The notes below the pieces were generated by a model. That model did no database searches. It was not told the DNA's origin and worked only from the letters and a program-made list of their open reading frames with translations. The position numbers were made by a program, and so were the translations under genes. Below, piece by piece: positions 19,984-64,000 of a DNA stretch of 64,000 nucleotides (positions within the stretch are counted from its first letter, which is position 1; each line of letters starts with the position of its first letter). The stretch comes from Ceratodon purpureus. Lineage: Eukaryota; Streptophyta; Bryopsida; Pseudoditrichales; Ditrichaceae. The DNA lies in contig CM026426.1 in assembly GCA_014871385.1 (NCBI GenBank), forward strand, positions 18,258,119 through 18,322,118. The letters run 5' to 3'.

Positions 19984-20265
19984 GCGAGTGGTGAGCGGTA
20001 AGTTCTGAGATATTTTGATAAAAATGTAACTTTAAGCAGTAAGTTTAGAGTATCTTTGGACAAACCGTATTTTTTGTAATTTTTTAAAAACTTAGCAAAT
20101 ATTAGGACCTATGACTGTGGACAATCAAGGACTCTAATACAGAAAAAAATGTAAATATATCAATGAAAAATCTGATAAATGTGGTAAATTGAACGTTTGG
20201 AGTTATGATTGTGTACAATGAGGGCCTATGGCCGTGGAAAATTTGAATACTACCTAGGGTGTAGT
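19984..20265 (+). repeat. MULE left-terminal region, copy A
   Basis: Homologous to 56,091-56,330 and, more loosely, to 60,740-60,990: a G-rich GAGCGG start, an AT-rich middle, then GACCTATGACTGTGGAC and CCTATGGCCGTGGAAA. Copy A retains only one or two GAGCGG-type units. Confidence 0.65.
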
Positions 20266-20429
20266 TATTCAGAGACATTCTAGAATAGTAAATGGATTCT
20301 CACTATATTAGAGTTGGGATAACATTTAATTTTTGTCAAATTAACATTTAGTATACTTAAAATGAAATTTATAGTACCTCTAAGATGAGGCTCATTGTCA
20401 AGGACACAAAAACCTTCTAATAAATAGAT

Positions 20430-21290: not shown

Positions 21291-24200
21291 CTATAAGTCA
21301 AGATACTTCCGTAAGCCAACCTCCAAAACTTGGTTCACTTTGTTGAAGCTAAAACGAGTTGCATGAATGAACGTGTTTGATTCTGAGTCCAAACCACACA
21401 CTACATCAAACAAATAGTACAAATGCCTACAATTGGCCCATTGACCCCATTTTCCAATTGCTTTAGTCGCCATCTCCTTGAAGTTAGGACAACTACATCC
21501 TGGCAGCTGCAAAATTATCAGGTAGTATTGCTGTACCTTTAGAAGCGTGCCAAAATCCAATGAGAATATGCATCCTAAGGCAAGTGCTAGAAGAATGCAC
21601 AATTTGCGCACTCGGCCTTTTAGTGATAGGGCTCAGGCACAATTATTGGCGTGCTTTGTTGACGTGGCCTTCTTGTTGCGCCGAATCAACTTCCCTAAAT
21701 ACTACGTGGGGAACTCATCCGAATATGCAGGAGTTGTGTAGCTTGTTAAGTCCATAGGCAACAGGTGGTCCCGAAAAAGTCTTGTAGGTGTCATCTCCTT
21801 CCGCTTGGGAGTCCAAAGCCTGCGTTTTCTAAATAGAGGATCTCTTTGCAGGTTAAGTTGGTCTCTCTTTTAACCGGCCATACCTCTAGAACGCTTAGCA
21901 CTGAGAGAACTCACTTCCTCTTTGTGCCCTTAACGCATCTCTCAATATCGTTGTTGCAAAAGAAGAAGTCCATGGGGTTGGTCCAATTCTTCCAATAGTT
22001 CTTCATGAGGCCCGAGTAGGTAGGTGCAGCGGTGCTCTTCCCGTCTTGGACAATCCAAGCAATGCACTTCTTCTTGGTGATTGCTTGTAGAGCAAAGCAA
22101 GCCTTTGCAAATGTCTTAGGCAAATGTGCGATGTGCCACTAGGCAAGGTTGCATGATGTCTTCTTAACTGCCGATCGAGCTACTGCAGAGCGTCGTCTGT
22201 TGGAAGCTGCTCGTCATCTGTAGTTGTGAAGAATCATGAGTTATCAGAGGAGGTGGAGAGTAGTTTAGTCGGGCAGATCTGGTTTGGACATGTGGTCAGG
22301 ATATACTGATCTTGTCTAGCTTGTGAGATTCACATTTGTCACCAAAAGCAAGATTCGGTTTACGCTTCAGAGAAACAAACACCTCCTCTCCTTTGAGGTG
22401 GAGAGTCCTGGTGCACCGCTCGTCACCGCCACGCATTTTCAAGATGGCCTCATGAAGCGGTTTAGAGTTTCTTGTTTTTGCAGCTGACCTTTGAGCAAGG
22501 CTCATCTTCAATTTCTCCTTCAACGATCAACTACTAGGGTTCTCTTCCTTCAAGATTTGGTAATATGCTGAGCACTGTATGAAAGCACGAACAAAGTCAT
22601 CAGTGGTTGACACATATAGGTCGCTGCCTTTATCGCCAAATTGATGCTTCCACTTGTTATGAATAGATTCAGCAAGGTTACATGACGACATTTCCACTAG
22701 TTTGTCTTCATAGAGATCCTACAATGTGAATACACTCCCATATTAAAATAATGGTGGAATTAATGTAGTTGTACTATTCAAAATGAACTTCCAAGAGGAT
22801 ATATAAAAGGATATCCAGACTTACCAATTCTATAAATCCACCCTATTGGCGATAACGGAATGCCAAGAGACCAGTCAAAGCTCCAGTCTTGGTAGCGCTT
22901 GTTCGGTTGCTATACTAGATGACATCTACCATGTCCGAATTGCCATATACTTTGTCTTGGCCTCTGCCATCGACTTTGCATTCTTGTATTGCCTGCATAG
23001 TCTTTGATGCTAAGATTGCAGGTCTTGACGGATATTAGCCTTGGTATGTTTCTCCAAGGACTGCGTCCAATGGAAAAAACAAAAAAATTCTCTATCCACC
23101 ATCTTTTTAGACGCATCTCCACTTCCGTATATGATTTGAACCGCATCTTAGTTGGCTTGGGCACTGTCGGCCATGAAACCTTTGAAATTGATATTGTCCA
23201 CTCCATGCGTAGCCATGAGGTCGTTGAGGTTCTTCCATATGACTCATTGGGCTCCACCATCTTTAGACTGCATGTCGTATATTGCAATTGTCATGATACA
23301 ACAATATGTAGAATCGTACACATGGCAAGCCATTGTCGTCAACGACGTGACCCGTTTGACATGGTCAAACATTATTCAAGTGTTTTCCAGGTCACCACCT
23401 GTTCGCATTCGTTTCACCAGGTTGACATTGCTGCCCGGTCCAACTTCAGACATTTTGAAGACAAAGACCTTGTCCATGTCCGCCCCTTGCCTTGGAAACT
23501 TATTCTATTGTACAAACTTCCAATTTTTAGCACCGCGTAAGTTATTAATAATGTCCATGACTCCAAAGCGACGGATAGTCCTCATCGTGGTGACTCCGTT
23601 ACGAATGTTGGCCAAGGTGAGGTGCTTACATCGATCAAAAATACCTTGCAGCTCTTCGAGCTCCAAGATCTTTTGTAGTTCTCCTTCTTTAGGAAGGAGG
23701 AGTGGACCCAACACTTCCTTTGCAATTTCAAGCACAATAGCCAAGCGAGTGGCTGATGGGGTGCATTTGCATTGCTCCCCAATCAAGCTGTCTGTCAGTT
23801 CGATGAAGTCCTGATGATCACCTGACTTGATGGGATGGTCGTGAGATCCCAAGTGCACACAAGCCGTCATCATGTGACGTGTCGCAATTACATAGTAGAT
23901 CCTAGCAGGGCTGACATCAACACAAGTGAGAGGGTCGTGACAGGATTCACAAACAACAGTCGATCCAGTGGGAGGCTTTGACCCCACCTCAAGCACCTTC
24001 TCAGACAATCCTTCCCACTCTATTTCATTCACTTTGTAAGTCCTGTGGTCTTTTGCTGAAGATACTCACAATCACGGTGGTCGCAACAGAGGTGGCCCAA
24101 ACAAGAGGATGTACAAAACAAAAGATTCATATCATTCTGAATATTGGATGTTATTGTACAAGACCAAGCATGGCAATCGTACCGTCTATTCATTCTATGA

Positions 24201-24921
24201 AGCTGCTTGGCCTTTAAGTTCTAGCCATGGTCACCTAAAGGTGAAAATTTTAAAGATAACGATCGAATCGTAAAGAGGGGGGAGGTTATCAACCTGCTCT
24301 AGTTTGATTGCATCAAAGTTAATTCGAGATCACACACTCTTGGAATGTTTACAAGCTCCAAGGCGCATCAACATATGAATGATACTGACAACATTACTAA
24401 CCACAACGTTGGTCTAACCATGATGACGAAACGGCCTAATCAGAGGAGTTGTTCCCTTGCGAACTAGCTACTTCTTGAGACAACGTAACTTGGACTTTAT
24501 TCTCTGATCTTAGAATTTCAATCTCACTGTCAGAATAATTACTCAACTCATAAACTGTTTCTAGACTGGGCTCAATTTTGATCCCAGACAACACTGGTCT
24601 CTCAATGCTAATAGTGGACAACTCCCTAGGTGTTAAAAGTTGAGTTGAACCATCTAATACATACTCTGAGACTCCGTATACACAATATTTTCCGGGCTTA
24701 AGCAACTAGAACCTACCGACGTCATCCTCTCCTCTAGTCTGACCAACTGCATGTGAAAGTAGACCCGTTTGATCGTCAAAAGCTTCTTCTTCGTGAAAGA
24801 CAGTGTCCTCTCAAAACTGAAACTTCAAATTTAATGTTGTACAAGTGACTCTAGCATGACCGTCTTCACCTAATCGAAAGAAGATCGGAACAGAATGATG
24901 ATCAACACAAATAAGGGCCAT
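21291..24921 (-). pseudogene. MULE-A transposase (zinc finger, DDE, SWIM), broken
   Basis: Coding similarity starts at an ATG at 24921 (MALICVDHHSVPIFFRLGED) and runs to 21291. In order: acidic N-terminal part; a WRKY/GCM-like finger ending ACVHLGSHDHPIKSG; DDE core with the CFFHW type C..H motif; an intron at 22824-22719 (GTAAG...TTGTAG, phase 0); then CNLAESIHNKW, which holds the expected catalytic Glu; and a SWIM finger GCSCPNFKEM...NCRHLYYLF with all four zinc ligands. Many in-frame stops interrupt it, including TAG just before the intron where copy B has Trp, and TGA and TAG near residues 37 and 72. Too decayed to encode an active enzyme. The N-terminal 75 or so residues survive here but are missing from copy B within this window. 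Confidence 0.85.
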
Positions 24922-27979: not shown

Positions 27980-28291
27980 TTAAGTTTTTCCCGTGTTGTC
28001 CATTGGATTTGCTTGGACATGTTTACCATAGGTCCGCAAGGGAGAGCCAAATGTGAGGGTTGCATTTTTTGATTTTACACCTCGTTTAATAATCCCTACT
28101 CTAGAATAGGCATGACTTTGTGGAGTAGACTTGACATCTACTCGGGTTGTTTCATTCGCTTGCAACAATGGAGTCCGAGGATCTGGACTGTGAACTACGT
28201 CCGCCCGTCTAACTCAGCAGTCATGTAGGTTGGCAATCTTCATGTTGTTGTCGTCTGAAACTCCGCTAGAAAAAAAGGTCTCTGAAACCAT
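27980..28291 (-). pseudogene. Orphan copy of MULE accessory protein (ORF2-like)
   Basis: From the ATG at 28291 the frame runs to a stop at 27980, with one TGA about 25 codons in. The block SHAYSRVGIIKRG matches PHAYSKVGKIPRG of MULE-C ORF2, and the preceding RADVVHSPDPRT aligns with RADPPRSENSDE. Spacing between the two blocks is close to that in ORF2. It has no nearby transposase in the orientation that the MULE-C layout would predict, so it is probably a relic of a fourth element. Confidence 0.6.
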
Positions 28292-31200
28292 CTATGGATA
28301 GCGTGCCATTAATTTGAGATGACCTAGGAGAATCTGTAGGAGCAAGGCATGGAAGACTTGAGTCAATTTCCATTGGAAAAGAAGATGGAGATGAGAGGAA
28401 GGTATGGGTAGAAGTACTCGATTATTATATACACCTAGGGTGGACACTTATGCCCAAATCTATGGCAACCTTGGTTTATCAATTAATAGTCATTACTTAT
28501 TTATGTCATTATTGGACAACCTATTTAAAGAAGGATTAGAATGTACTAAAAAAATAGTCATAGCTTTATCGACACCAAATATTTGACATGGCAAGATACG
28601 ATTATTTAGATTAGGTTTCAGGGCCGACTTTTATAGTGAATTATTAGAGTGAGGATTAACTCTTACAACGGATCTCAAATAATTTAAGAAACTGTAGATT
28701 AACTTAATTTATCTAAGTGGATGTGAACATAATGATCGCACATAGATGTTAATTATGATTGACTTGACAATGATAAATAGGATATCTTTGCTTCTGTATT
28801 GTTAAAAATGATCACTAGATCGAGAGTGAGAGCAGACCGAGAAGTTAAGAGGACTATAGAAAAACAGAGGCGTGTTGAGAGAAGGCAAAGGTTTGAATAA
28901 AGAGAGAGCTTAGGGACGTCGTATAACTTGAGACCAATAGTGGGTAGACGAGAGGGTAATTCATCTAAAAAAACAAGTAGAGGTTCCAAAGGGAATAAGA
29001 CTTTTGATGTTTCACCGGTAGCCCCCATTGTTTTATTCCTAGTTTTGGAGGAAGGAACTTCTGTTGATAGAGGAGACAATGAGGTGATTTTTATTTGCAA
29101 TCCTTATTACTTATATCTAGGACAGATAAGACTCATTAACTCCTCTTTTCTGTTGGCAAGGTCTTTGGCATTCTTTTCAATTCTGAAGTTGGTATCGGAT
29201 GGTGACTTGGAATGTGTTCGACATCTGGAACAGGGACCTACGCAAGAGGAGCGTCAACCAAGCTCAGCCTCGAGTGCATCAACGTCTAATCACACTGGGA
29301 CTCGCGAGCAAGTTACTGACTAGTAACTACCCTTTGTGCTGAGTGCATTCTCTTGTTCTCATGGCGCAGTCGTCCTTTAGACCTAATGTCAACTATGTAG
29401 CTAATGATTGCTTGCCATTGACTTTCGCAGACTCAATAGAGTCAGGGTGAAATTTAGAGGGAAGTTGACGTTGTGGACACTGTCAAACGCAACATGGACA
29501 ATGATGAGCGGAATGTCGGATAAGAGGTAAGCACTTACACTCAAAAATTGAATGTCTATTTACATCATTGTGTAAGCAGATCGTGTGAATCGCTGTAATC
29601 GGAGTGAAGTGGTTCTGAAACCCTAGACTAGAAGTCATTTTGTTTTGGGTTGGAGAACCTTACTGATTCATCCGTAAAGAGTATAACGACCTTGCTAGAT
29701 TTAAGTATTCGGGGTTTTTATGGAGTTTCTTGTAGGTAAACAGGTAGAATAGTGAGCTCAATTCAAAATTTGTGGAAAAATAAATTGTTTGACTCCTCAG
29801 TCTCGGCCTTGAGAGTGACTTTGCAAGGCTGAGAGTGCATTTTGTACACGGTGAGCTCCGCTCGAGAGGGGCTCCCGCCATGGGAGGCACCCCGTGCAGT
29901 AGGGCAAGGGCAAAGCTTGGCTCGAGGCGTTGGGGTGGCTCCCATTGCGAGAGCCCCTCCCGGGCGGGACTCAGCCTGCGTCACCCACGTGTCGACATTC
30001 TCTAACAAATCAGGGGGGAAGCACAATAAAGTGTACCACAAAAGTGCTTAGCTCTTTGTCAATTTCAGCCACTCTCACATATACTAAAGAAAGTGGCATC
30101 AAAATTTAAGAGATGTGAAAAGGGGTTTAGGGTATGGAAAGTAGACTTGAACTCCTATAAGCTCGGTAAATTTCACGAGGAGATTTTACTTTTATGATGT
30201 CGTATGACCACCTTAAAGTCGGAGAAAGTGAATGCAGTCATTTGGAAAAGTGCTTTGAACGGTTGCATACATTGTCCGAATTCACTATGAAGTGACAACA
30301 CAGCCCTCCGTATGTGAATTACGGTCCTAAAAATGAACCAACATACTTTGTATTCAATTATATTCGGGCCTAAAGTACATCCGCAACGTTTTCGTGGTGC
30401 TGTTTTTGGAGCAACTTTTTAGGGGGTAGTTATGAAATTTTATGACATTGAAATGTAATTCCGGGGACATATTTAGAATGTCGAGGGTTGTGGAAAAAAA
30501 AAAAGTGAAAAAATAATATATTTGAAAATTACAGTCCACTTAAAATGCACTTTACAGAAAGTAAAATTGGATATCAAGTGTCTTAGAAGAGCGCCATGAC
30601 GTTCTTGGTAGGTGAGTGCCTTCATGGGAACCTCATTAGTGCCTCACGCATGGGAAGGAGGTTCAGCGTGCGGGGCAACAAATGGTACGCTCAAGCGACG
30701 GTGCAGCCGTCACTCGCAGCTAGGGAATGCAGGGATTTTTTCAATATGATCCATTTTATTCAAATTTGAATAGGTACTGTAATTGAAAGCATAGGCGAGT
30801 CATCATCTGGATCACGGGCAGAGCTGGGTGTCCGAAGTCCTTCAATGATTCCGAAAAGATGCTTAGACGCTTCGTGCCAGTGCGTTGTCGGTGCACATGG
30901 AAGTGCTGCGGCGTAGGGGTGTGGAGTTCTGCTCTAGGGTTTCAGGAGTTTAGGGTTTCGCGGCACTGTGAATCAAAGGGGACGAGGAGGGACGAAGACG
31001 TGCTGAAGATGTCTTCCAACGGGGTACCTGTTGAGTAACATGACTAAGTGCAGTGGCGCGCTAAGGTACAAAGTTCTTGTAATGTCCGAGTAGTGGAATA
31101 CGGTTTAAGCGCGTAGCGTCTCCACTAAGCGCCTTGGGCAGGTGGATGGATCCCGGGAGTGCCTAAGGAAGCTCCACGCAACAGCCAACGACGTTCAACA

Positions 31201-38024: not shown

Positions 38025-39346
38025 ATGGAGTCTTGGGAGGATGAGCTTGAGAGGAGTCTTGGTATGGAAATAGGGTTTGAAGAAGATATGGAGGATGAGC
38101 TTGAGAGTGATTTTTTTTCCAGACGGTTGATGGTGTGACAAGTGAGCTTTTGGGGGAGCCCTCTTCACCTCCAAAGGTGGGTGGGAGTGTGCCCGGTCGG
38201 GCATATGTGTTTAGGAATAGGGAGCACTGTCACGATCTTCTTTGGGAGGATTATTTCTCTGAGAATCCGACGTACGGCCCAAGGAAGTTCAGGAGGCGTT
38301 ATAGGATGCGGAGGGAGCTCTTCACAAGAATTGTTGAGGCGGTTGTCAGGTTTGATCCATGGTTTAGGCAAAGTGTGGATGCTGCAGGTCGTTTAGGGTT
38401 ATCTTCTTTGCAGAAATGCACTGCCGCCATCCGTATGCTGGCTTACGGTGTGGCGGCAGATGCATGTGATGAGTATGTGAAGTTGGGTGAATCCACTGCT
38501 CAGGAAAGCATGACCACGTTTGTGATTGCCATTAGAGGATGCTTTGAGGAGGTTTATTTGAGGCAGCCTACACGACAAGATATAGAGAAGCAGATGGCTA
38601 TCAATGAGAAGCGGGGATTTCCAGGGATGTTTGGGAGCCTCGATTGCATGCATTGGACTTGGAAGAATTGTCCCGTGGCTTGGCAGGGACAATTCCAGGA
38701 CAAGGATAAGAATAGAAGCATCATTTTGGAGGCTGTGGCAGATCAGAGCTTATGGATATGGCATGCTTTTTTTGGGTTGCCTGGAGGCAACAACGACATT
38801 AATGTTTTGGATAGTTCTCCATTTCTTCTAAACCTCCTGCGAGGTGCTGGACAGGACATCAGTTTCGAGGTTAGTGGACATACTTATCCCCGGTACTATT
38901 TTTTAGCTGATGGCATCTACCCAGCATGGGCATGTTTTGTACAGCCTATTCATGAGCCGCAGGGAGAGATGAAGGAGCACTTTGCAAAGTGCCAAGAAGG
39001 TGCCCGCAAAGATGTTGAGAGGGCCTTCGGGGTGTTGCAAGCTAGGTGGGAGATCATCAAAAATCCCGTGAGACAGTGGAATTTGGGAGTGATAGAAAAC
39101 ATTATGATGGCTTGCATAATTATGCACAATATGATCTTGGAGGATGAAAAGGGTCTTCATCTAGAGCCGTTTGTTGATTTGGGGGGTCCATGCCAGAGAA
39201 CTCCTATCCCATTCACATTCCATGATTTGCAGAGTGGCACTAGGGAGATAGAAAATGTTGAGACACATTTTGCATTGCGAAATGATTTGATAGACCATTT
39301 GTGGATGTTGAGGGGGCAAAGAGGGAGACTAGGTCTAGGACAATGA
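38025..39346 (+). CDS. PIF/Harbinger DDE transposase
   Basis: Cuts and pastes the element. The main frame, from 38135, encodes 403 residues with the DDE_Tnp_4 layout: a helix-turn-helix-like N-terminal part (PRKFRRRYRMRRELFTRIVE); first Asp in GMFGSLDCMHWTWKNCP (about residue 170); GLPGGNNDINVLDSSPF; second Asp in YYFLADGIYPAW; and Glu in GARKDVERAFGVLQARW. An upstream ATG at 38025 opens an acidic stretch (MESWEDELERSLGMEIG) that would join the main frame if the T run at 38,110-38,117 had one more T. So either there is a one-base frameshift, or translation starts at 38135. No other stop is seen, so the enzyme may be recent. Confidence 0.93.
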
Positions 39347-41116
39347 AAATGTATCTCTTTATTGTGAATAAAATCTTGCATTCAAGTTCAAGCCTTGTCC
39401 AAAATTCCTGAAATCATACATTTGGCTATCTCCAATGGAGGGGTGATGACCATCTAAGGGAAAAGTGGCTCCTACAGGATACATGGGAGGGGGTTGTGCA
39501 AATGATGTTTGTCTACTCTACTCAAACCCGTGTGTATGAGTGGGAGGAGTCATTCCAAATTGAGTATTTGGAATGCATTGGGAGTCTTCCCAGTCATCTC
39601 CTTGTCCATCATCTGTACAGCCCGAAATTGAGCATTATTCACAGTCAAACAAGCAACAAAAACAGGACAGACATCAAGCTGACCATTGCTACAAATAGGA
39701 AAAAAAAATTAAGTAGTAAAACAACTCCAAGCCATCAATCAGGGCATACTTTGAGCTTAATGCACAAAAACCATGCAGTCACAACGAGCACAGGGGAATT
39801 CAAACAGCAACAACATCATACATGGTGATTTAAAAAAAATAATTAAAAAAAAGAAAAAAAAAAAAAAAGAAAGAGATACTAACGACTGAGACTGCGCTGT
39901 GACTGAAGAGAGAGGGTGAGTGAAACCTTCGGGTTGGGATCAGGGGGTGTGGTTAGACAGGAGCGCTTTCAGGGAAAACAATGATGCGAGGACCAAATTA
40001 AAGAAAGACAGAGATACAAGAAAAACGCAAAAGAAAAAAAAAAAAAAAAAAAGAAAAAAAACAGACTGCAGAGTGGAAGGAGAGAGTCACCGAAGGCATG
40101 AAGTTCCTGGAGGAGCGACGAGATGGAGAATAGGAATTTGATGAGAGAATAGGGAGACTTCATTAAAAATGAAAATAAAAGAAAAAAAAAACAACCAAAC
40201 CGACAGAAAGCAGCGACGGTGAGGGCTGAGTTGATAACAAACGATTCAGAGAGATGGAGAGCTTCAGCCGAGTGAGGAGCAGAACATCAAAGTGGAAAAA
40301 AGAATTAAAAAAAAAAAGAATGGAGAGCCAGCTGATACTAAAGCTTGAGAGTGAGCGTTTGTTAGGGAGAGATTCCGAGAGGGGAAGAGCGTGAGAGAGA
40401 TAGCAGCAGAGAATAACCGAAACAAACCGGCACAGAAAAGCAGAGAAATAGCAGAGAATAGCAGCAGAGAATAGCAGAGAAAAAAAAAACAAACCGAAAC
40501 AATCTGAGAGACACAGATTCAAAGGAGTGAGGGAGAGGGAGAGGGAGAGTGCACATATACAAACCGAGAGGAGAGTGCACAGAGAGATTGTGAAACAAGG
40601 TGAGAGAGAAAAAAAAAACCAAAAACCGAAACAAGATGAGGGAGAGGAGCAGAGAGGGGCGAGGGTTCGGGAGAGGGAGAGTGCACAGACAGAAACCGAG
40701 AGGGGAGACTTCAAGAGCAATCCAGAGAGATTGTGAAACAAAAAAAAAAAAAAAAAAAAACAAAAACCGAAACAAGGTGAGAGAGAGGGCATGAGAGGGG
40801 CGAGGGTTCGGGAGAGGGAAAGTGCACAGACAGAAACCGAGAGGGGAGATTTCAAGAGCGATTCAGAGAGATGGTGAAACAAAAAGAAAAAAAAAAAAGA
40901 AAAAAACGAACAGAGAGAAGGTGAGATCGAGGGCATGAGAGGGGCGAGGGTTCGGGAGAGGGAGACTGAGAGACGCTGAGAGAGAGATTGCTCTGAACCT
41001 AAACACAAAGAGGGTCGAAAACGCAAGAAAAAAAAAAAAAACGAAGCAAGCAGGCTGTGCCAACAGTCGCACTTTGCGAGGGTTCTGAAGAGGGAGAGCT
41101 TTCGAGGGGGGATTCC
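39347..41116. repeat. GA-rich, poly-A-laced spacer of Harbinger element with 130-bp tandem units
   Basis: Between the two convergent genes. From about 40,500 to 40,990 a unit of roughly 120-140 bp recurs three to four times: GCGAGGGTTCGGGAGAGGG, GTGCACAGACAGAAACCGAG, AGAGCRATYCAGAGAGAT and GTGAAACAAA followed by an A run. Long open frames on the minus strand here are translations of the C/T-rich complement. Confidence 0.85.
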
Positions 41117-42307
41117 TCAGTAGGAAAAAAAAAAAAAAACAACAATGACAGAGGTTTGGAGAGAGGGAGACGTATCGTGGAGGGTGTGCTCCGGAGAAAA
41201 ATCCCCAGATTGAGTCGTCCCGTTTGGGGCAGGGGCCGCAGGCAAACTCGACCTAGTGCCGGTCGCTGCAGAACTGGGCGGGGGCTGAGTTTCGGGGGTG
41301 GCGGTTGCGGTGGTGGTGGACTGCAGCCGCTGCCGCTTCCCAGCCTGCGACTCCCCCGCTCTCTCCCGTTGTGCCTTCTCCGCGGCCCTCTCATTGACAA
41401 TTTTGTCGTGCTCCATCTTCTCCTTCTCTGCGAGACGCTGCTGCTGCTCCATTCTCCTTTTGATGCGGTGGAGCTCTTCCTTCCGTCGCAACTGAAAGTA
41501 TTCACGGGCGTCCTCATCCAGGTCTTCCATGGGCATGCGGAAGAGGGAAGCGGCAGCATGGTCTGCCATAGCTTCAGCTTTCCGCAAATTGGCTGCAGCC
41601 ATCTGCTCCGTGGCCCTTGCGGTACTTTTCAGAATAGCTTCCTTTCGACCCTGCTCTGCGAGGTCACTCTTCGCAGCTTTGTTGCCCATTGGCCTAGCGG
41701 GGCGGGACCTGAAACTCTTCGGTTCCACCACTTGAACGTCCTCTTCGGCCATGGCCGGCGCCTCTGCTCCCTCGCTGGGACCGCTTCCTTCATCGCCCAA
41801 GTCTACTACCGATGCAGTGCCTGCCCTTCCTCGACCCATGCTCACTCCCGGACTCTCAGGTCCCACATTGCGCTTCTGCACCTCCATAGCTGATTGCCAC
41901 CACCTAGGAACGTCCTTGAGCAGCTGCCAGCAATGCAAGAATGCAAACGTTTGCTGCTTGGGATGCCGGTCCTTGTAGTATTCAAGCGCCCTCTCCAAAA
42001 CATCCTCAGCAGAAACACCTGACTCTCTCGAATCTGAGACTTGTTTATGGGCTCCTACAAATTTCGCAACATCATGCTTGATGTGACTCCACTTCGATTC
42101 AAGAGACCTCGAAGGACGGGTGGGTGCATACCTTGGCTTTGTTTTGTTGAAATGTGTTGTGATCCTCTCCCAAAACGCAATGTTGCGTTGCCCATTGCCA
42201 CACACTGGGTCCTGCGAAACAGCCAAAAAACTCCTGCACAAGCATCTCTCCTCGTCAGCACTAAAGTTCTTCCCCTTCTTCCCCCTTCCCGCCTCAAGAG
42301 CTGCCAT
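41117..42307 (-). CDS. PIF/Harbinger Myb/SANT-like partner protein
   Basis: In this superfamily the second protein binds transposon DNA and helps the transposase enter the nucleus. I place the start at the ATG at 42307 (MAALEAGRGKKGKNFSADEE), because the frame upstream to 42457 is Pro-rich sequence from the terminal region. Residues about 15-90 are the trihelix/SANT-like part: FSADEERCLCRSFLAVSQD, AFWERITTHFNKTKP and SLESKWSHIKHDVAKF. A middle acidic segment follows, then a long charged helix (REYFQLRRKEELHRIKRRME) likely to form a coiled coil, and a Ser/Thr/Pro-rich tail. The frame is open throughout. It converges on the transposase. Confidence 0.85.
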   Translation of the reverse strand: MAALEAGRGKKGKNFSADEERCLCRSFLAVSQDPVCGNGQRNIAFWERITTHFNKTKPRYAPTRPSRSLESKWSHIKHDVAKFVGAHKQVSDSRESGVSAEDVLERALEYYKDRHPKQQTFAFLHCWQLLKDVPRWWQSAMEVQKRNVGPESPGVSMGRGRAGTASVVDLGDEGSGPSEGAEAPAMAEEDVQVVEPKSFRSRPARPMGNKAAKSDLAEQGRKEAILKSTARATEQMAAANLRKAEAMADHAAASLFRMPMEDLDEDAREYFQLRRKEELHRIKRRMEQQQRLAEKEKMEHDKIVNERAAEKAQRERAGESQAGKRQRLQSTTTATATPETQPPPSSAATGTRSSLPAAPAPNGTTQSGDFSPEHTLHDTSPSLQTSVIVVFFFFSY

Positions 42308-43487
42308 CCTGGCGTTGACTACGCAATAGAGTGTGGAAATTGTCTCCCTCCAAGCAGAGGAAAAATGGCGTGAGCGGGCCTGTGATGGAGTGTGGCAGGA
42401 AAGTGGAGGGGGGGGTGGCGCGACCATTGGGTTCCAAAAAGCACGCGGGCCCGCCAATGCCCGTTGGCGTGGGCCGTTGGCGCGGCTAATGGGGATGCTC
42501 TAAGTCTCTTGAACTTTGTTTTTCCTGAAGCTCGTTTCTTGATGTTTTCTTTTTGAATAGTGTTTTCTGCATTGACCTTTTTGCTGTCTATGTCCACAGG
42601 GCAGACATCATCCGAGACTTCAAAACTGGGGATAGTTCTGCTATGCATTTATTGGTAACTCCTGATGCACTTCTCTGGTTTTACTGGTTTTGTTTATTCT
42701 GTGGCAAGTGTAGCCAAGTGAAAAAAAGCTGCATTTTTGGAGGGCTTGTATTCACAAGTCCTGTGGCATCCTTTGTAATTGCAGAATCTGAAACCCCGGA
42801 GTCATGTGAGGCCGCATACTTCAAGGTAAGTTATTGACGCTCTATATTATTAGGGATGGACAGGTTTTCTCTGTTATGAACTGCAATTGGCTTCCCCTTG
42901 GCGTCATTCTTTATCAGTTTGCTGATTTCCTTCTTTGTCCTTTCAAATGGATAATGTGTTTATTCTATGGTCGAAGAATACATGTGGATTTCAGCCAAAG
43001 TGTTTCACACTTATGGAATTGATACCAGAAGGCTGGCAAAAATGGCGGAGATGGTCATTGTGAGCTTCTCTACACGATCCAAGTTTTATACCATCTTCAT
43101 GACTGAGGTTATAGCAGTAAACACAGGTTTGGAGATTAGGGCAAGCTTGCGTCTGGCAGCTGGTTCTAGGCTTGGTGTTCTTCGTGTTCTCTTCAGGTGT
43201 TGCCCACTGAACCTCTCTCAAACCCTAGAAATGATGTGATTTTAATGGATGATCTTTACAAGAAAAGATAGGATTAAGATTCCCATGCTTCTCCTCAGTC
43301 CTTTGTGAATTAAATTCCGTTCCCGGACCCTTGGGTTTTCTCCAAACCCCGAATCCCTTAAGAAAGCAACAGATAGTTCAGAATTACTTTGTCAGTCTCA
43401 TTTAGGGACAATTATGTGCATTTGGATAGTGGGATTCACCGTGGTCATTCTGATAACCACTCGTTTTCCGCTTCTAGTTCGATGCAG

Positions 43488-56090: not shown

Positions 56091-56330
56091 GCGAGCGGTG
56101 AGCGCTGAGCGGAGAGCGGAGAGCGGTAACTAGTTGAGTATTTTGATGTTTTTGGGAATTCAGAGCGGTATGGTTATGGTATTTTATGGACTAACAATTT
56201 TTTTGGTTTTTAAATTTCTAAATTTAGTTCGTAATGGGACCTATTACCGTGGACAATCTCAGCAAAATGAATTCATGGCCTGATCTATGGCCGTGGAAAT
56301 TATTGTATTACGGTTTTCGGGTGCAGTAGT
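56091..56330 (+). repeat. MULE left-terminal region, copy B
   Basis: Five GAGCGG/GAGCGC-type units in 40 bp, an AT-rich middle, then GGGACCTATTACCGTGGAC and CTATGGCCGTGGAAATT. It matches copy A closely and copy C in the same orientation. Confidence 0.75.
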
Positions 56331-56977: not shown

Positions 56978-59900
56978 CTACTTGTCTAGGTGCTTCAGAA
57001 GGCCACTCTCTAGGACTCGCTTCACTTCGTTGCAGCTAAAACTAGCTGCATGAATGAATGTATCCGACTCCGAATCAAGACCGCAAACTACACTGAGAAG
57101 GTAGTACAAATGCTTACAATTAGCCCATTGACCCCGCTTCCCAAGTGCCGTCATTGCCATCTCCTTGAAATTTGGGCAAGTCCAGGCAGGGTGCTGCGAA
57201 ATGGTCAGGTAGTATTGTTGTACCTTTGGAAGCTTCCCTGAATCCAATGTGACAATGCATCCCAGGGCTGGGGCAGGCAGCATGCACAGCTTGCTGACCT
57301 TCGCGTTCAACGATAAGGCAGAGGCACAATTATTGCTATGCTTGGTCGACGGGGCCTTCTTGTTCCGTCGGATGAGCTTTCCTGATTGCCGGGTAGGGAA
57401 CTCATCCGGGTATGCCGGCGTAGGGTAGGCCGAGAAGTCCACTGCCGCGGCCCGGTCTTGGAAGAGTCTTCTTGGTGACATCTCCTTCTGTTGAGGGAGT
57501 CTGAAGCCGGCATTCTCTAGAGAGACGATCTCTTTCTTCGTCAACTTCGTCCCAATCTTCACAGGGCACACCTCAGGTACCTTTGGCACCGATAGGACCC
57601 ACTTCCGCTTGCTACCCTTGACGCACCTGTCAATGTCGTCATTGCAGAAAAAGAACTGATGAGTCTCTATTCTGTCCTTCTGGTAGTTCTTCATGGGGCT
57701 TGTGTATGTCGGCGCAGCCGTGCTCTTCCCGTGCTGCACAATCCGTGCCACGCATTTCTTCTTAGTCACAGCGTGTTGGGCGAAGCAAGCCTTAGCGGAC
57801 GTCTTAGGAAGTCGTGCAATGTGCCACTCGGAAGGGTTGCAGGCGGTCTCTTCAACTGAAGTGACGTGATGGTACTCGACTGGCGGTGGACACTGCTCAG
57901 CGTGAAGGTCGGCTTCGTCCGCTTTAGTGCTTGTAGGAGAGTCTGCTATTACCACCGTCGGAGGGTAGTCGCTCTCCCGACGTGCAGCTCTAGTCTGGAC
58001 ACGAGGTCTTGACACGGTGATCTTGTCTGGCCTATGAGACTCTCGTTCATCTCCGAAGGCAACATCAGGTTTTCGTTTTAGTGAGACACAGACCTCCTCC
58101 CCTTCAAGATGCGGGTCCCTTGTGCACCAGTCGCCCGCTCCTGGCATGTTCATAACCGCTTCATGTAGGACCTTCGGATTCCCTGTCCTCGCTGCAGATC
58201 TCTGTGCACGTCGGAGGCTGAGCTCTTCTTTTGACGGAACTTTCCCCGGATGCTCCCCCTTCAAGAACTGGAAGTATGCAACGCATTGCATGAACGCCCT
58301 TACAAAGTTGTCGACAGCTGCAACGTACAAGTCGCTGCCCCGATCGCCAGACTGCTGCTTCTACCTGTTGTGAATTGATTCAGCAAGATTGCACAATGGC
58401 ATTTCCGCCAGCTCTTCCTCAGTGTGATTCTGCACACATTAGGGGTTAGTTTAGGGTTTAGGGTCCAATTACTGACTGCGAAGCAAACACAGTGCCACTA
58501 GCAGGAGTCCTCGGCACCGAGGCCAATTGCCAAGGGCTGCAAGGCTGCTGCATTGGGCGCTTACTGAAGGCATGGAGCATCATGAAAGACCAGACTGAGT
58601 ACCCCAAGCAAGAGTGCTCGGCCCCGAGGCAACTTGCCAAGGGCTGCAAGGCTGCTGGATTCGGCGGTAGGTCATGGCTCGGAGGATGAGAAATGAGCAG
58701 ATTCTGTACTCCCACCTCGACTACTCGGCACCGAGGGCTGAAAGGGTGCTGCACTAGACGCTAGGGCATCGCACGGAGCATCACGAGAGAGCAGATTCTT
58801 TACCTCCAGCAAGTTACTTAAGATGCGATAGAGACCTGAAAGGCCGAGAGATAGCTTACCAGTTCCATGAAGCCTCCCCACTGGCGATAGCGATGGTGCG
58901 AGAACGAGAGCCACGTCTCCATGTTGGAGAGCTCTTTTCCAGTTGCAGCGCCGGATGACATCCACCATGCTCGGATTGCCAAGAATTTTGTTTCAGCTTC
59001 GGCCAGTGTCGTCGCGTTCTTGTACTGCTGGCAGAGTTTGATGTGTTGAGCTTAGAGGTCCTGTCGAATGTTAGCGTTTGTATGTTGCTCCAAAGACTAC
59101 CTCCAATGGAATAGGCATGTCCTCTCCCTATCAACCATCCTCTCGGAGGCGTTACCGCTCCTATAGATAATTCGAACTGCGTTCCAATTCGCTTGGGCAC
59201 CGTCTGCCATGAAGCCCTTAAAGTTTACTCTCGCGATCCCGTGAGTCTCCATGATGGCATTCAAATTCTTCCAGAGCACGGACTGGGCTGCCGTGTCTTC
59301 CAACTGCATGTCGCACGCAGCGATTGTCATTATCCGACAGTAAGTGGGGTCGTAGACGTGGCAGGCCATTGTTACCCAGTCCCTAACTTGCCTCACGTGG
59401 TCAAACATGATCCACGCATCCTCCAAGTCACCGCCTGTCTGCATACGCTTAACTAGATCGACTCCAGAACCCGGCCCTACCTTAGACATCTTGAAGACAT
59501 ACACCTTCGCCGCATCATCGCCTTGCCCCAGGAACATGTTATTTTGGATAAACTTCTAGTTGCTGAAGCCTCCCAGCATCCTCATGCCATCCATGGTCCC
59601 AAAGCGCCTAACATTCTTGAACGATGTAATGCAATTTCGGATGTTTGGGGAAGAGAGGTCCTTACAGCGGTCGAATATTGGTTCGAGCTCCACCAATTCC
59701 AGAATCTTCTGCGGTTCACCTTCCTTGGCCAGAAGTAACGGGCCCAGCAGCTCCTTCGCAGTTTCGAGGACGATGGCGGAGGGAGTGGCGGAGGGAGTAC
59801 GCTCCACCTGCTCCCTGATCAAATTCTCCGTGTGTTCGACGAAGTCACGGTTCTCGCCGGACTTCACTGGGTGGTTGTGAGTTCCCAAGTGAACGCACGC

Positions 59901-60739
59901 TCTCGTCATGTGAGGTCTTGCAGTGACATAGTAAATCTTTGCAGGGCAAAGTGCAACGCAGGTCGGCGGCGTACTGCAAGATTTACAGACCACAGTGGAA
60001 CTCTGTGGCGGGTTCGACCCAACTTCAAACAGTCTCACAGATTTTCCATCCCATTCAGTCTCGTTCACTACCGAAGTCCTATTATCACGTGTAAGATACT
60101 CACATTTGACATTGTCACAGCGCAGATGGCCAAGGCACGACGAAGAACGGAATGTCAGCTTGAGGTCGTTCTGAATATTCGAAGTCACTGTTCGAGTCCA
60201 AGGGTGTCCGTCGTATTTCCTATCCATTCCCCGTAACTGCTTCGCGGCGGAGTGATGGCCGTGAGCACCTAGGGGTGGGAACTCAAAAATGACATCGCCA
60301 TTGTACTGAGGAGGAGGGTACTCAACTTCCTGTATTCTAATTGCATCAAATTTGATGCGAGACAGAACACTCTTTGACCTTTTACGAGCGCTAAGCTTCA
60401 TGAGGCACTGGACGACACTGTCTGTAGGGGAGACTGCCGGGGTAGACGGAGGGGAGACTGCCGGGGTAGATGGAACGGATGACTTCAGGGAGGCAACTAC
60501 TTCCGCAGGAATCTCAACTGCAGTTGGCAATGTCGTGTCCTTCACCTCAGGGAGTATTGTCGTCTCAAGTACGTTTTCACTATCAGAATCACTCAACTCA
60601 AAAATGGTTTGAAGTCGTGGCTTGGTCTTCACTTTCTTCAACGGCGGATCAGAATTGATGCACACTGTTGTAGACGATCGGGGGGTAAGCAATTCAATAG
60701 AAGCACCTAAGACAGACTCCGTAAGAGGGAAGCTTGTAC
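56978..60739 (-). pseudogene. MULE-B transposase (zinc finger, DDE, SWIM), few defects, N terminus cut off
   Basis: Reads from 60739 to 56978. Order: acidic region with IFELSDSDSENV; Zn region HLRCDNVKCEYLTRDN, then ACVHLGTHNHPVKSG (WRKY/GCM-like C..H.H end); core with probable first Asp in IAACDMQLED, second Asp in FKGFMADGAQANW, then CLFHW; intron 58859-58430 (phase 0); then CNLAESIHN with the expected catalytic Glu; a long variable region; and SWIM-like AWTCPNFKEM...NCKHLYYLL. Defects: TAG 59558-59556 where copy A has Trp, TAG 59099-59097 where copy A has Gln, TAA 59054-59052, and TAG 58363-58361 where A and C have Trp. The first SWIM Cys is Trp here, so zinc binding is probably lost. About 75 N-terminal residues present in copy A are missing, replaced by the end of copy C. 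Confidence 0.88.
58450..58463 (+). repeat. Two plant-type telomere units (TTTAGGG)2 in the MULE-B intron
   Basis: TTTAGGGTTTAGGG within the 430-bp intron. Too short to mark a chromosome end; probably chance or a telo-box-like motif. Confidence 0.7.
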
Positions 60740-60990
60740 GTGAGCGGAGAGCGCAGAGCGGAGAGCGGTGAGCGCAGATTTGGAGAGCGGAGAGCACAGA
60801 ATGGGGGACAGAACCTAAAAATAGCACTTTTTTTACTAAAAATAAATTATAAAATTAGAAGATTCGAATATTCTAATTGTATTTTTGGAAATTTACTAAT
60901 TTTAGTAATTTAATTGACCCTATAACCGTGGACTAATTACAGTATTTTCATTGAATTCGTAGTTCATATTCTCTTTTCTTGGTGATTAAT
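60740..60990 (+). repeat. MULE left-terminal region, copy C
   Basis: Seven or so GAGCGG/GAGAGCG units between 60,740 and 60,800, an AT-rich middle, then GACCCTATAACCGTGGAC near 60,920. Same orientation as in copies A and B, so it is the same (left) end of a separate element, not the inverted right end of B. Confidence 0.75.
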
Positions 60991-61709
60991 TTTTTAACGT
61001 GCACCAATTACTATGCTCCAGCTCCTTCTAACTAGTTCAGGCATACAGTAATTCCCCTTATCTCCTTAAATTTATATGCAAATTACTACTTGAAATGTAT
61101 TGGTATTCAACCTCTGAACAGGGATCAAGTAACATTTAATTTCGTAACATTTTCTTAACATTGCTAGAATTCATCCACCATAGTCTACATGCCTTTCTCA
61201 TTTTTTTTATTTTTTTTTATTTTTTTTGAAATTTGTCTTGTATTTTTTATAAAACTTTCTTTATTCTATCTATCTAGTTAGAGGGGTCAAAAGCCTCCTT
61301 TCATTTAATTCTCTCCTTCATTTTATTTTCACAATCATTTTATTTTCACATTCAATTTGTTGATCTCCTTTATATTATTTTCAACCTTCATTTTAAATAT
61401 TGCTATTCTTTTCTTTAATCTTTTTAATTTCAATTTATATAAATGTTTTTTTTTTTGGTTTTTTTTGTTTTTTGTTTTTTTCATTCTTTAAATTTTAAAA
61501 AACAATTTAAATGCTAAATGACCTCTGCTAAACCTTCATCTTTTTCCATTCGGTTTAGGAGGATGACAACTTTTAAATGAATGAATAGCCGATTTTCAAG
61601 GGCGCCAAGCATCTTCTTCAGGGATATTTAAGATAAGAGTAGGGAATGTCTCTGCCTCTTTTGTGTTTTTGTTATGTGAAGCTCTTTTCCGTAGTGCGGG
61701 ACAGCAGCT
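60991..61709. other. AT/T-rich spacer upstream of ORF2
   Basis: Pyrimidine-rich with several T runs (61,200-61,260 and 61,440-61,500) and no coding frame. Presumably holds the ORF2 promoter; no clear TATA box stands out. Confidence 0.5.
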
Positions 61710-62162
61710 ATGGAAGACGTCAGAGATATTGTTGTTTCACTTGCTGACGATGTTTGTCCATTTCAACCATATGTTGAGGTGGAGGACGAAGAAGAAGTGA
61801 TGGCCAACAGCCAAGGGAGTCCTTCGACAACGGATGTTGACGTACAACCGGATGTAAGAGCTGACCCTCCACGTTCAGAAAATTCGGATGAAATCATAGT
61901 GCTAGAGAAGGACGCAGATGTGCCTTTGCAACCACATGCATACTCGAAGGTTGGAAAGATCCCAAGGGGAACCTATTCCAGGGAATCAGTTAATCGGAGG
62001 CGGGGAGGTGGGCCATTGCTGAAACGTTCATACCAAGGACACGCTCCAAGTGTGGGAACGAAAGTGAATGCGACTGTAGTTTGTCCTGTAGTACAGTCAG
62101 CGGCTGGCAGTCGTGCTGATAGTGTAGTGGGCAAGTCTAAACGTGTTAGGTTCGAAGATTGA
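61710..62162 (+). CDS. MULE-C accessory protein (ORF2), 150 residues
   Basis: Starts MEDVRDIVVSLADDVCPF and is acidic for about 70 residues. A conserved centre follows, PHAYSKVGKIPRGTYSRES, then a basic Arg/Gly stretch and a C-terminal basic patch, KSKRVRFED, likely a nuclear localisation signal. No known domain. Homologous blocks occur in MULE-B (56,449-56,532) and in the orphan at 27,980-28,291, so the protein is a shared part of the family. It converges on the transposase with 254 bp between the stop codons. By analogy with maize MuDR, which also pairs a transposase with a convergent second gene, it may help insertion or nuclear targeting (inference). It shows no similarity that I can see to mudrB. 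Confidence 0.75.
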   Translation: MEDVRDIVVSLADDVCPFQPYVEVEDEEEVMANSQGSPSTTDVDVQPDVRADPPRSENSDEIIVLEKDADVPLQPHAYSKVGKIPRGTYSRESVNRRRGGGPLLKRSYQGHAPSVGTKVNATVVCPVVQSAAGSRADSVVGKSKRVRFED

Positions 62163-62416
62163 GATATCTAATAACAAGTATATGTTTGCTGTAATAAAAG
62201 ATATATGTTAGGGGATACGAAGTATATAGTGCACTTGTTCAAGATAGATTGTATTGAAATAGAATGCAATTAATGTGAACGACAAAGCCCTTAATATAAT
62301 GAAAAAGTCAATACAGCTTCTATATTGCTGACTTAGTACATGGGATATTACTAAAATCATTCACTACGTGACAAATGGCCATTGTGGAAATGGCAGTTCT
62401 AAAGTAGGAGGGCTAC

Positions 62417-63910
62417 CTACTTCTTCGCCAAGGGGTGACGCAAGATTCCACTCTCTAAGAGTAGCTTGACCTCGTTGAAGCTGAAGGTGGGCGCATGGAT
62501 GAAAAGCTCGGCTTCGGGATCACGGTTGCAGACCTTCAAGAGTATGTAATAAAGGTGCTTACAATATGAGAACTGAGTCTTGCCACGGAACGTAGTCATC
62601 GTCTTCTTGAATGCTGGGCAAGTGCAACCAGGATAAGAACTGATGGTAATCTGGTACCGTGTGATGTGTGGAGCGACGCCCGAATCCAGCCCAATGATGC
62701 AACCGTGGCCCGGCTCAAGTATCATGGTGACGGAATGGAGGCGCGCTTTAAGAGACTCGGAGGAGCCCATGGAGAGTCGCTGCGCTTGATTGGGACGAGT
62801 GGCAGTGCGCTTCACCATCTTGCCGTCTCTCTTGCCTGGGTAGCGGTCAGCGTCTGCAGGGACTGGCACCGAGCTCAGATTTGCAGGGGGCGGGGCAGAA
62901 GAGAACAGGCGTCTTGGGGAGACCGGTTTCTTCGGCGGAAGTTGAAAGCCCGCTGCTTCGAGGGCTAGAATCTCAGTCAGTTTTAGGTTAGTACCTAGTT
63001 TCACTGGCCAGACCTCTGGAATGGAGGGGAATTCCTGGTCCTTTGAGTAGTGTGCTACCCACTTGCGCTTAGAGCCTTTCACGCAGCGCTCAATATCGTC
63101 GGAGCAGAAGAAGAACTCTGTCTTCTCGACTAGGTTCCTGCGATAGTTAGTCCAGAGCCCAGTGTAGGTCGGTGCAGCTGTGGAATGGGGCCCTCTGACG
63201 ATTCTCTCAGTGCACTTCTTCTTCGTTTCAGCTCTTTGGGCCCAGCAGCACTTCGCAGAAAGTTTGTGAAGTCTGGAAATGTGCCATTCCTTCACGTCGA
63301 CCTTGGTTTCTTCAACCGCGTTGACATGGCGAATGCCGCCCTTGTTCACAGGTGAAGGTAAAGGGGAATCAACTTCCTGGGCAGGAGGTTGGGTACATTG
63401 TACCTCGGTGTCGTGTTCGGAGTCGTCTTCCACAATGACGGGCATCTGCATAGGGCGAGCCCTGACGGCACGTCTTGGGCCTCTTGGGCGTGAGAAGTTT
63501 GTCTTATCCGGGCGATGAGACTCCTCGTCAGCTCCGATAAGGACGTCGGCTTTTCGCTTCTGTGAACCGAAGACTTCCGCTCCAGGCATGATAGGCTGAC
63601 GGGTGCAGAACTCATCCGCGCCTGGCATATCGAGCATGGGCTTGTCGAGCAGTGTAGGATTTCCCCATTTCTTTGCGTTGCGTTCAGCCATCCGGAGCCT
63701 GAGTTCCTTCTTGGACGGTCCTGTTCCGCCGACGTCACCTTTTAGGAACTGGTAGTAGTTGACAACCTGTAGAAAAGCCCGAACAAAATCGTCCACGGTA
63801 GCAACGTACAGGTCGTTCCCGTTGTTTCCTGAAGCTTGGAGCCACTTGTTGTGAACCGTTTCGGCGAGGTTACAGGTGGGCATCTCTGTGAGTTCTTCTT
63901 TCGTGAATTT
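62417..63910 (-). CDS. MULE-C transposase, C-terminal exon
   Basis: Last exon, open over 497 codons from the acceptor CTGCAG just above 63910 to the stop at 62417. It starts KFTKEELTEMPTCNLAE; the Glu in NLAETVHNKW is the expected third catalytic residue. After a long variable region with basic patches comes a complete SWIM finger, GCTCPAFKKT...YCKHLYYILL, with ligands C-x-C and C-x-H. The exon border matches the phase-0 introns of copies A and B. Similarity to copies A and B is clear but moderate, so C belongs to a related subfamily. The zinc finger and first two catalytic Asp lie beyond the window. Confidence 0.88.
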   Translation of the reverse strand, partial: KFTKEELTEMPTCNLAETVHNKWLQASGNNGNDLYVATVDDFVRAFLQVVNYYQFLKGDVGGTGPSKKELRLRMAERNAKKWGNPTLLDKPMLDMPGADEFCTRQPIMPGAEVFGSQKRKADVLIGADEESHRPDKTNFSRPRGPRRAVRARPMQMPVIVEDDSEHDTEVQCTQPPAQEVDSPLPSPVNKGGIRHVNAVEETKVDVKEWHISRLHKLSAKCCWAQRAETKKKCTERIVRGPHSTAAPTYTGLWTNYRRNLVEKTEFFFCSDDIERCVKGSKRKWVAHYSKDQEFPSIPEVWPVKLGTNLKLTEILALEAAGFQLPPKKPVSPRRLFSSAPPPANLSSVPVPADADRYPGKRDGKMVKRTATRPNQAQRLSMGSSESLKARLHSVTMILEPGHGCIIGLDSGVAPHITRYQITISSYPGCTCPAFKKTMTTFRGKTQFSYCKHLYYILLKVCNRDPEAELFIHAPTFSFNEVKLLLESGILRHPLAKK

Positions 63911-64000
63911 CTGCAGATTTGACAGTAAATGCCGTTAGATTCACCGATTACAGGTTTCTAGGTTAGGGCTAGGAAACTAGTATCAAAAACATCAAAACAG

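Follow-up and report, generated by a model that had tools for sequence, protein, structure and literature searches.

Does the short open reading frame (ORF) that faces a transposase gene near the end of a 64,000-nucleotide stretch of the moss Ceratodon purpureus encode an accessory protein of a Mutator-like element (MULE)? Such proteins are known mainly from flowering plants and, to our knowledge, how they help their elements is settled for only a few. The stretch (the window, G000:C6:18258119-18322118, on contig CM026426.1) was analysed within the one genome from which it comes, 362,488,568 bases in 151 contigs, and all genome-wide searches below refer to that genome. The frame in question, ORF2, belongs to a transposon that we call element C; the transposases of two related copies, A and B, lie in the same window. 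A preliminary description had proposed that a 150-residue ORF2 on the plus strand faces a SWIM-type transposase on the minus strand, and this arrangement was confirmed: ORF2 at 61710-62162 is opposed by a 505-codon ORF at 62417-63934, which is mostly exon 2 of the transposase and in which the C-x-C...C-K-H pattern can be seen by eye. We propose that ORF2 is probably a small helper encoded by a large, several-gene, Mutator-like cut-and-paste transposon, perhaps one that counteracts silencing. The right part of element C runs past the window end, and coordinates above 64000 are extrapolated from window numbering.

61710 (ATG) to 62162 (stop), plus strand: ORF2, 150 aa, with an acidic first half, the core HAYSKVGKIPRGTYSR and the basic end KSKRVRFED
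62417..63910, minus strand: exon 2 of the element C transposase, with the motif CNLAETVHN and a SWIM-like C-x-C...C-K-H read by eye
63911-64016 (63911..64000 in the window), minus strand: intron of the element C transposase, with splice signals read by eye

ORF2 and its link to the transposase

The length of ORF2 is by itself modest evidence for a gene, because frames of at least 155 codons also arose in 11 of 1000 dinucleotide-shuffled versions of the region. Its G+C content (GC) is 0.486, against 0.39 and 0.33 in the flanks, with a codon-position pattern of 0.64 at first positions (GC1) and 0.37 at third positions (GC3). A protein search with ORF2 scored 150 matches of 1350 candidates, 92-100% identical and spread over 13 contigs; at least 150 near-identical genomic copies therefore exist, 148 of the 150 listed are stop-free, and the family that bears ORF2 is abundant and apparently recent. 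In 31 copies, all from loci selected by ORF2, the ORF2 frame contains no stop, whereas each of the other forward frames contains 7. No relatives of ORF2 or of the transposase were found in viral contigs. Judged from its sequence, ORF2 is a real gene, more than a chance frame.

All 30 loci that were fetched by way of ORF2 run from ORF2 into a convergent transposase exon 2, including one with a deletion within exon 2 (L014) and one with a rearranged left end (L040). A second check started from the transposase and so avoided selection on ORF2: a search with exon 1 scored 61 matches of 2872 candidates. Twelve of these 61, the window's own included, have a listed ORF2 on the opposite strand at a gap of 1810-1819 bp. 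The predicted place was fetched for 12 of the other 49, and ORF2 lies there on the predicted strand in 11, open in ten of them and frameshifted in one (L064). Counted from the transposase, ORF2 is thus at the predicted spot in 23 of the 24 elements checked, of 61 listed. The preliminary description was also right that the protein is unfamiliar: it matches nothing in the libraries searched, and it is linked to a transposase in a non-flowering streptophyte.

Relatives of ORF2 in a second layout

Blocks of ORF2 had been reported to recur in copy B and in an orphan at 28 kb. None was found in copy B inside the window (best frame p 0.12); the relative that belongs to B lies beyond the window, because element C interrupts B. 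The relative at 28 kb is real, with a tblastn E value of 0.01 against the whole window and a score reached by none of 200 shuffled queries, but it is no orphan, since the transposase of element A lies 3.1 kb away. The features of the two copies are as follows.

21303-24921, minus strand: element A transposase, degenerate, with stops and frameshifts
28019..28201, minus strand: ORF2-like stretch of element A (QSHAYSRVGIIKRG), 3.1 kb upstream of the A transposase on the same strand
28805..29065, plus strand: ORF3-like stretch of element A (E 2.7e-4 with the ORF3-like protein of B)
56093..56126, plus strand: GAGCGGA array at the left end of element B, from the repeat scan
56981..60714, minus strand: element B transposase, split close to the N-terminus by the insertion of element C
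76869-77348 (extrapolated), minus strand: ORF2-like gene of element B, upstream of the B transposase on the same strand

A and B share the order transposase (minus), ORF2-like (minus), ORF3-like (plus). To see how general this pairing is, the core of the B transposase (81 scored matches of 2441 candidates) was set beside the B ORF2-like protein (572 candidates, of which 150 were scored as matches with identities of 37-100%; a hand count puts the stop-free ones at about 117). An ORF2-like gene lies within 1.5 kb upstream of 75 of the 81 listed B-type transposases, on the same strand in all 75, and the gap is 650-750 bp in 71. For five of the remaining six it lies 3.2-17.7 kb upstream, again on the same strand; these include the window's own B, whose large gap is due to the insertion of element C. 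Next to the sixth, the nearest listed ORF2-like gene is 19.3 kb off and on the opposite strand. The proximity to transposases that the preliminary description expected therefore holds in this genome in the ORF2-selected, the transposase-first and the sister-layout samples. Its comparison with the layout of maize MuDR survives for the convergence in the C subfamily and fails for A and B. ORF2 was retained though relocated, being downstream and convergent in C and upstream on the same strand in A and B; thus, the partnership is conserved and the layout is not.

The relationship is also visible in the proteins. A B-type profile aligns with the ORF2 core over 27 columns (E 1.9e-7, probability 93.7%). 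The B-type consensus of eight members contains the blocks S[LI]xxFxGPFEP and HAYAxVGxIxPGTYSRxLLRxTPRxKGRKLQ, and 25 columns, around GPFxP and YAxVGxIxxGTYxRxLLR, are invariant in all eight; the end blocks common to ORF2 and the B-type proteins come from reading the alignment by eye. All ten ORF2-like sequences have a net negative first half and a net positive second half, and eight of them carry an AT-hook-like PRxxGR (L059 does not).

Among B-type ORF2-like members, the ratio of nonsynonymous to synonymous divergence (dN/dS) is 0.25-0.67 where synonymous divergence (dS) is measurable, and comparisons with C are saturated. Mean identity over 40 B-type pairs is 46% for the ORF2-like protein versus 85% for the transposase, and over 75 pairs the two identities correlate with r 0.97. 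Nucleotide diversity (pi) in the 31 copies, whose selection by ORF2 similarity biases the value for ORF2 downwards, is 0.020 in ORF2, 0.034 in transposase exon 2, 0.048 in intergenic sequence, 0.057 in the AT-rich stretch and 0.068 at the left end; the ratio of nonsynonymous to synonymous variants in these copies is 0.46 for the ORF2 frame, lower than for the two alternative forward frames (0.83 and 1.04). A neutral simulation was run for 11 sequences, namely C and ten transposase-selected copies (L064 and L068 were left out). The purifying selection that had been suggested for ORF2 is accordingly seen in part: constraint is visible between related subfamilies, and the young C-type copies, which fit neutrality, give no firm evidence of it. 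The moss family thus appears to hold a tightly linked helper that has moved between subfamilies and that diverges in step with its transposase but much faster.

Four stops interrupt the frame of the B transposase, and its intron contains a 107-bp minisatellite (window 58484-58813). The core of this transposase has no relative in plasmids, and among PDB sequences nothing meaningful was matched (best E 0.43). The right end of element B lies beyond the sequence fetched, with 108-bp minisatellite arrays and other sequence there; arrays of 13.6 and 27.4 copies were seen to the right of B at extrapolated 79115-80573 and 84228-87181 (L010, L075). A further minus-strand match to ORF2 in the interval of copy A (20171-20287, E 0.19), in the subterminal region of A, was treated as chance; it scored higher than any of 200 shuffled queries.

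What ORF2 may do

Besides the linkage, the retention after relocation, the conserved core, the charge polarity, the constraint between subfamilies and the fast divergence, a helper role for ORF2 is favoured by a parent element that looks autonomous: its transposase is open over 1,190 aa, with a dN/dS of 0.05-0.18 between copies. The ORF2 protein would act in the nucleus. Its basic, often AT-hook-like second half could contact the element's own noncoding DNA (the GAGCGGA arrays at the ends, the AT-rich stretch) or chromatin, and its acidic first half could recruit a partner, so that the element would stay transcribed or its ends would become usable by the transposase. A close parallel is Arabidopsis VANDAL (vanA, vanB, vanC), which likewise has several genes beside a Mutator-like transposase, together with noncoding tandem repeats. 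According to PMC5735166, a VANDAL protein lifts silencing and binds short motifs that form arrays in the noncoding repeats of its own transposon; the same source describes an accessory protein that evolves new targets, and coevolution of proteins and motifs through the formation of tandem repeats. The rapid, lineage-matched divergence of ORF2 would suit a VANC-type factor with sequence-specific anti-silencing activity better than a protein with a conserved catalytic role. Unlike VANDAL, element C has a clear inverted end of ~60 bp and ORF2 has no Pfam match. With matched helper and transposase pairs that span a gradation of divergence, it can be tested directly whether each helper recognises the DNA of its own element.

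Several results weigh against a helper: (i) Two of the 12 sampled elements depart from the pattern, L068 being without ORF2 at the expected place and L064 having it frameshifted. (ii) Codon usage trained on transposase ORFs gives no preference for the ORF2 frame. (iii) ORF2 has no match in Pfam or NCBIfam, and PDB sequences gave nothing meaningful (best E 0.9). (iv) The ORF2 of element C itself lacks the AT-hook-like motif. (v) The 47 nonsynonymous and 26 synonymous variants of the 11 young C-type copies do not depart from the neutral simulation (P 0.25). (vi) The simulation expects 2.3 stops in these copies and none is present (P 0.10). (vii) The fast divergence of ORF2 would fit relaxed constraint too.

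The main alternative to anti-silencing is a structural role, with ORF2 as a partner that the transposase needs for synapsis, for integration or to bind the element ends; such a role has been proposed for maize MURB. The tight linkage and the lineage-matched divergence from the transposase both suit such a partner, and we also count in its favour that mudrB is apparently required for integration, as stated in PMC6446971. Even so, we consider this role unlikely, since we would not expect a protein that works structurally with a slowly evolving transposase to drop to 46% identity where the enzyme itself is still 85% identical.

We give much less credence to ORF2 as a captured host gene or passenger that has no role in transposition and was amplified by hitch-hiking. 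Its codon usage is indeed unlike that of the transposase (third-position GC 0.37 versus 0.61 in C exon 2), and among young copies no constraint is detectable. A passenger would hardly have diverged to ~40% identity across subfamilies with its frame mostly open (about 117 of the 150 listed), with conserved blocks and dN/dS below 1, or have been kept through relocation and inversion between subfamilies. Least credible of all is an incidental frame, opened by chance in conserved terminal regulatory DNA: the shuffled regions that reach the length of ORF2 speak for it, but it is refuted in practice by protein-level conservation across subfamilies at a different position in the element, besides the stop-free frame of the 31 ORF2-selected copies and the ten of 12 transposase-selected loci that are fully open.

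Element C as a whole and its setting

60715..60724, strandless: left copy of the 10-bp target-site duplication GACTCCGTAA, an exact direct repeat on both sides of element C
60725..60810, plus strand: left terminal inverted repeat of element C, whose inverse is found at the right end
66717-67190 (extrapolated), plus strand: ORF3, 157 residues, beyond the window
~69948-70397 (extrapolated), plus strand: ORF with five YxPTSPx heptads, which we take to resemble the C-terminal repeat (CTD) of RNA polymerase II
70546-74543 (extrapolated; L010:265-4262), plus strand: ten-exon model of a methylase-domain gene with an N6_N4_Mtase match
75061-75657 (extrapolated), minus strand: ORF5, beyond the window

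Element C measures 15,475 bp between its exact GACTCCGTAA duplications and ends at extrapolated 76199; the right copy follows directly beyond the right end, outside the window. Among 500 random placements, a repeat of at least 9 bp arose in none and one of at least 8 bp in 0.2%. The terminal inverted repeats are ~62 bp long and 88.7% identical, and the left one contains a 7-bp GAGCGGA array at 60742-60795 (TRF) with an inverted GAGCGGA array 15.4 kb to its right. Alignments start within 4 bp of the left end of C in 25 of 29 other loci (exceptions L021, L025, L028 and L040). The element is nested in the N-terminal coding region of the B transposase, the right flank encoding ...KPGKYRVYGITES and the left flank carrying on with ...TESVLGASIEL. 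A paralogous B-type sequence on contig C8 is uninterrupted at the insertion point and has a single TTACGGAGTC; this empty site confirms the boundaries. Contig C6 holds a second full-length copy, whose flanks share an exact repeat of at most 12 bp (CTCCAACAAGGG); trimming to the element ends as in C gives a 10-bp duplication, TCCAACAAGG. The element ends are heptamer arrays, although for the C6 copy the repeat program listed none on the left; a 200-211-bp tandem array lies in the right half of each of the four copies examined. Another C-type element sits in a B-type transposase on C8 (L041:1-150), ~50 bp from the equivalent of the window's site.

The two-gene element of the preliminary description proved too small, as element C holds at least five conserved ORFs or genes: ORF2 (plus), the transposase (minus), ORF3 (plus), the multi-exon methylase-domain gene (plus) and ORF5 (minus), with the heptad ORF (plus) before the methylase gene. 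The order from ORF2 through transposase, ORF3 and heptads to the methylase gene is kept in the fetched part of all four copies (C and three others), and ORF5 is present in all three copies whose fetched sequence extends to it, one of which includes it only in part. The splice signals behind the exon models were picked by eye. The transposase has two exons, exon 1 lying just right of the window, and dN/dS for exon 2 alone is 0.05-0.13; for ORF3 it is 0.23-0.33 and for the methylase gene 0.21-0.31. Two of the transposase comparisons contain a single in-frame stop each, and the methylase comparisons contain 1-3. Between copies, dS is at most 0.13 in the left half (ORF2 and transposase) and 0.47-0.78 in ORF3 and the methylase gene, while in ORF5 it is zero in the two possible comparisons (L041-L046 with L009 and L010). 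This contrast suggests module exchange or homogenisation between element lineages, which would make the elements mosaics.

The methylase gene model is open over 1,050 residues, without an assigned start. A search with one methylase exon scored 150 matches among 1638 candidates, so that there are at least 150 in the genome. The N6_N4_Mtase match of the gene scores 26.7 bits, the same as the cut-off (E 6.5e-6). Where such enzymes usually have (D/N/S)PP(Y/F/W), all four copies read D(V/I)PE. The stretch WEGNHRLSAWL, identical in all four, presumably resembles ParB-like domains, an assignment that no profile supports. The five heptads lie at L009:9723-9827 (extrapolated 70104-70208), and their ORF is 91-93% identical in three other copies. 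The methylase-domain gene and the CTD-like heptads raise a separate question, that of how a transposon might manage host chromatin. A possible though doubtful reading is that the element represents a new moss lineage of giant several-gene transposons, with a transposase outside current profiles and an epigenetic kit of its own (a fast-evolving VANC-like ORF2, a ParB-like and DNA-methylase protein with an altered motif, and a CTD-like heptad protein) that would recruit transcription or re-mark the element's own copies.

The element fits a Mutator-like mode, as indicated by (i) its 10-bp duplication, within the 8-11 bp of MULEs, (ii) its inverted ends of the MULE kind and (iii) its motif order as read by eye. 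In MULE transposases an N-terminal zinc finger is followed by D...D, C-x2-H, N-x2-E and a C-terminal SWIM finger; B and C share stretches that, by eye, look like all of these, and CNLAE is found in A as well. The Pfam model PF10551 (MULE DDE) matched neither the B and C pieces, nor one A piece, nor the spliced 1,190-aa protein; when the genome was searched with it, 150 of 384 candidates were scored and 93 matched, all of them outside the window, and profile comparison with PF10551-positive proteins of the same genome gave a probability of 0.2-0.3%, from a shallow profile that used three of five sequences. With maize MuDR the element shares inverted ends, a duplication in the MULE range, the by-eye SWIM-like finger and, in the C subfamily, a convergent second gene. 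It differs in its 15.5 kb, its five or more ORFs or genes, the upstream same-strand ORF2 of A and B, and a transposase without a match to the Pfam MULE or SWIM models. Lanisha is said to have been described from this same moss by authors of the Ceratodon genome work. It is a proposed cut-and-paste superfamily (Maumus, McDaniel and Carey 2020), in a group with 2-5 bp duplications (PMC12730594). Membership of Lanisha or CMCT was rejected because our element makes 10-bp duplications. Oomycete MuDR/MULE elements are reported to carry a SET methyltransferase gene (PMC6446971, PMC12730594); element C resembles them as a Mutator-like element with a methyltransferase-type gene and differs in having an N6_N4_Mtase match, not SET, as well as ORF2, ORF3 and ORF5. 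No description of this element was among the matches listed by our literature searches.

Contig C6, which bears the window, has 110,524,308 bases, or 30% of the genome. The U and V sex chromosomes of C. purpureus each exceed 100 Mb, ~30% of a 360-Mb genome (PMC8000587), and we infer that the contig is a sex chromosome. Rfam and tRNA scans of the window gave no match. Its first 12 kb have a GC of 25-28%, far below the remainder. N-terminal exons of a dynein heavy chain lie at 401-1406 on the minus strand (DHC_N2, E 8e-25 and 1.4e-10), which fits a plant with swimming sperm. At 38111-42499, two convergent ORFs of 411 and 460 aa resemble a PIF/Harbinger transposase and its Myb-like partner.

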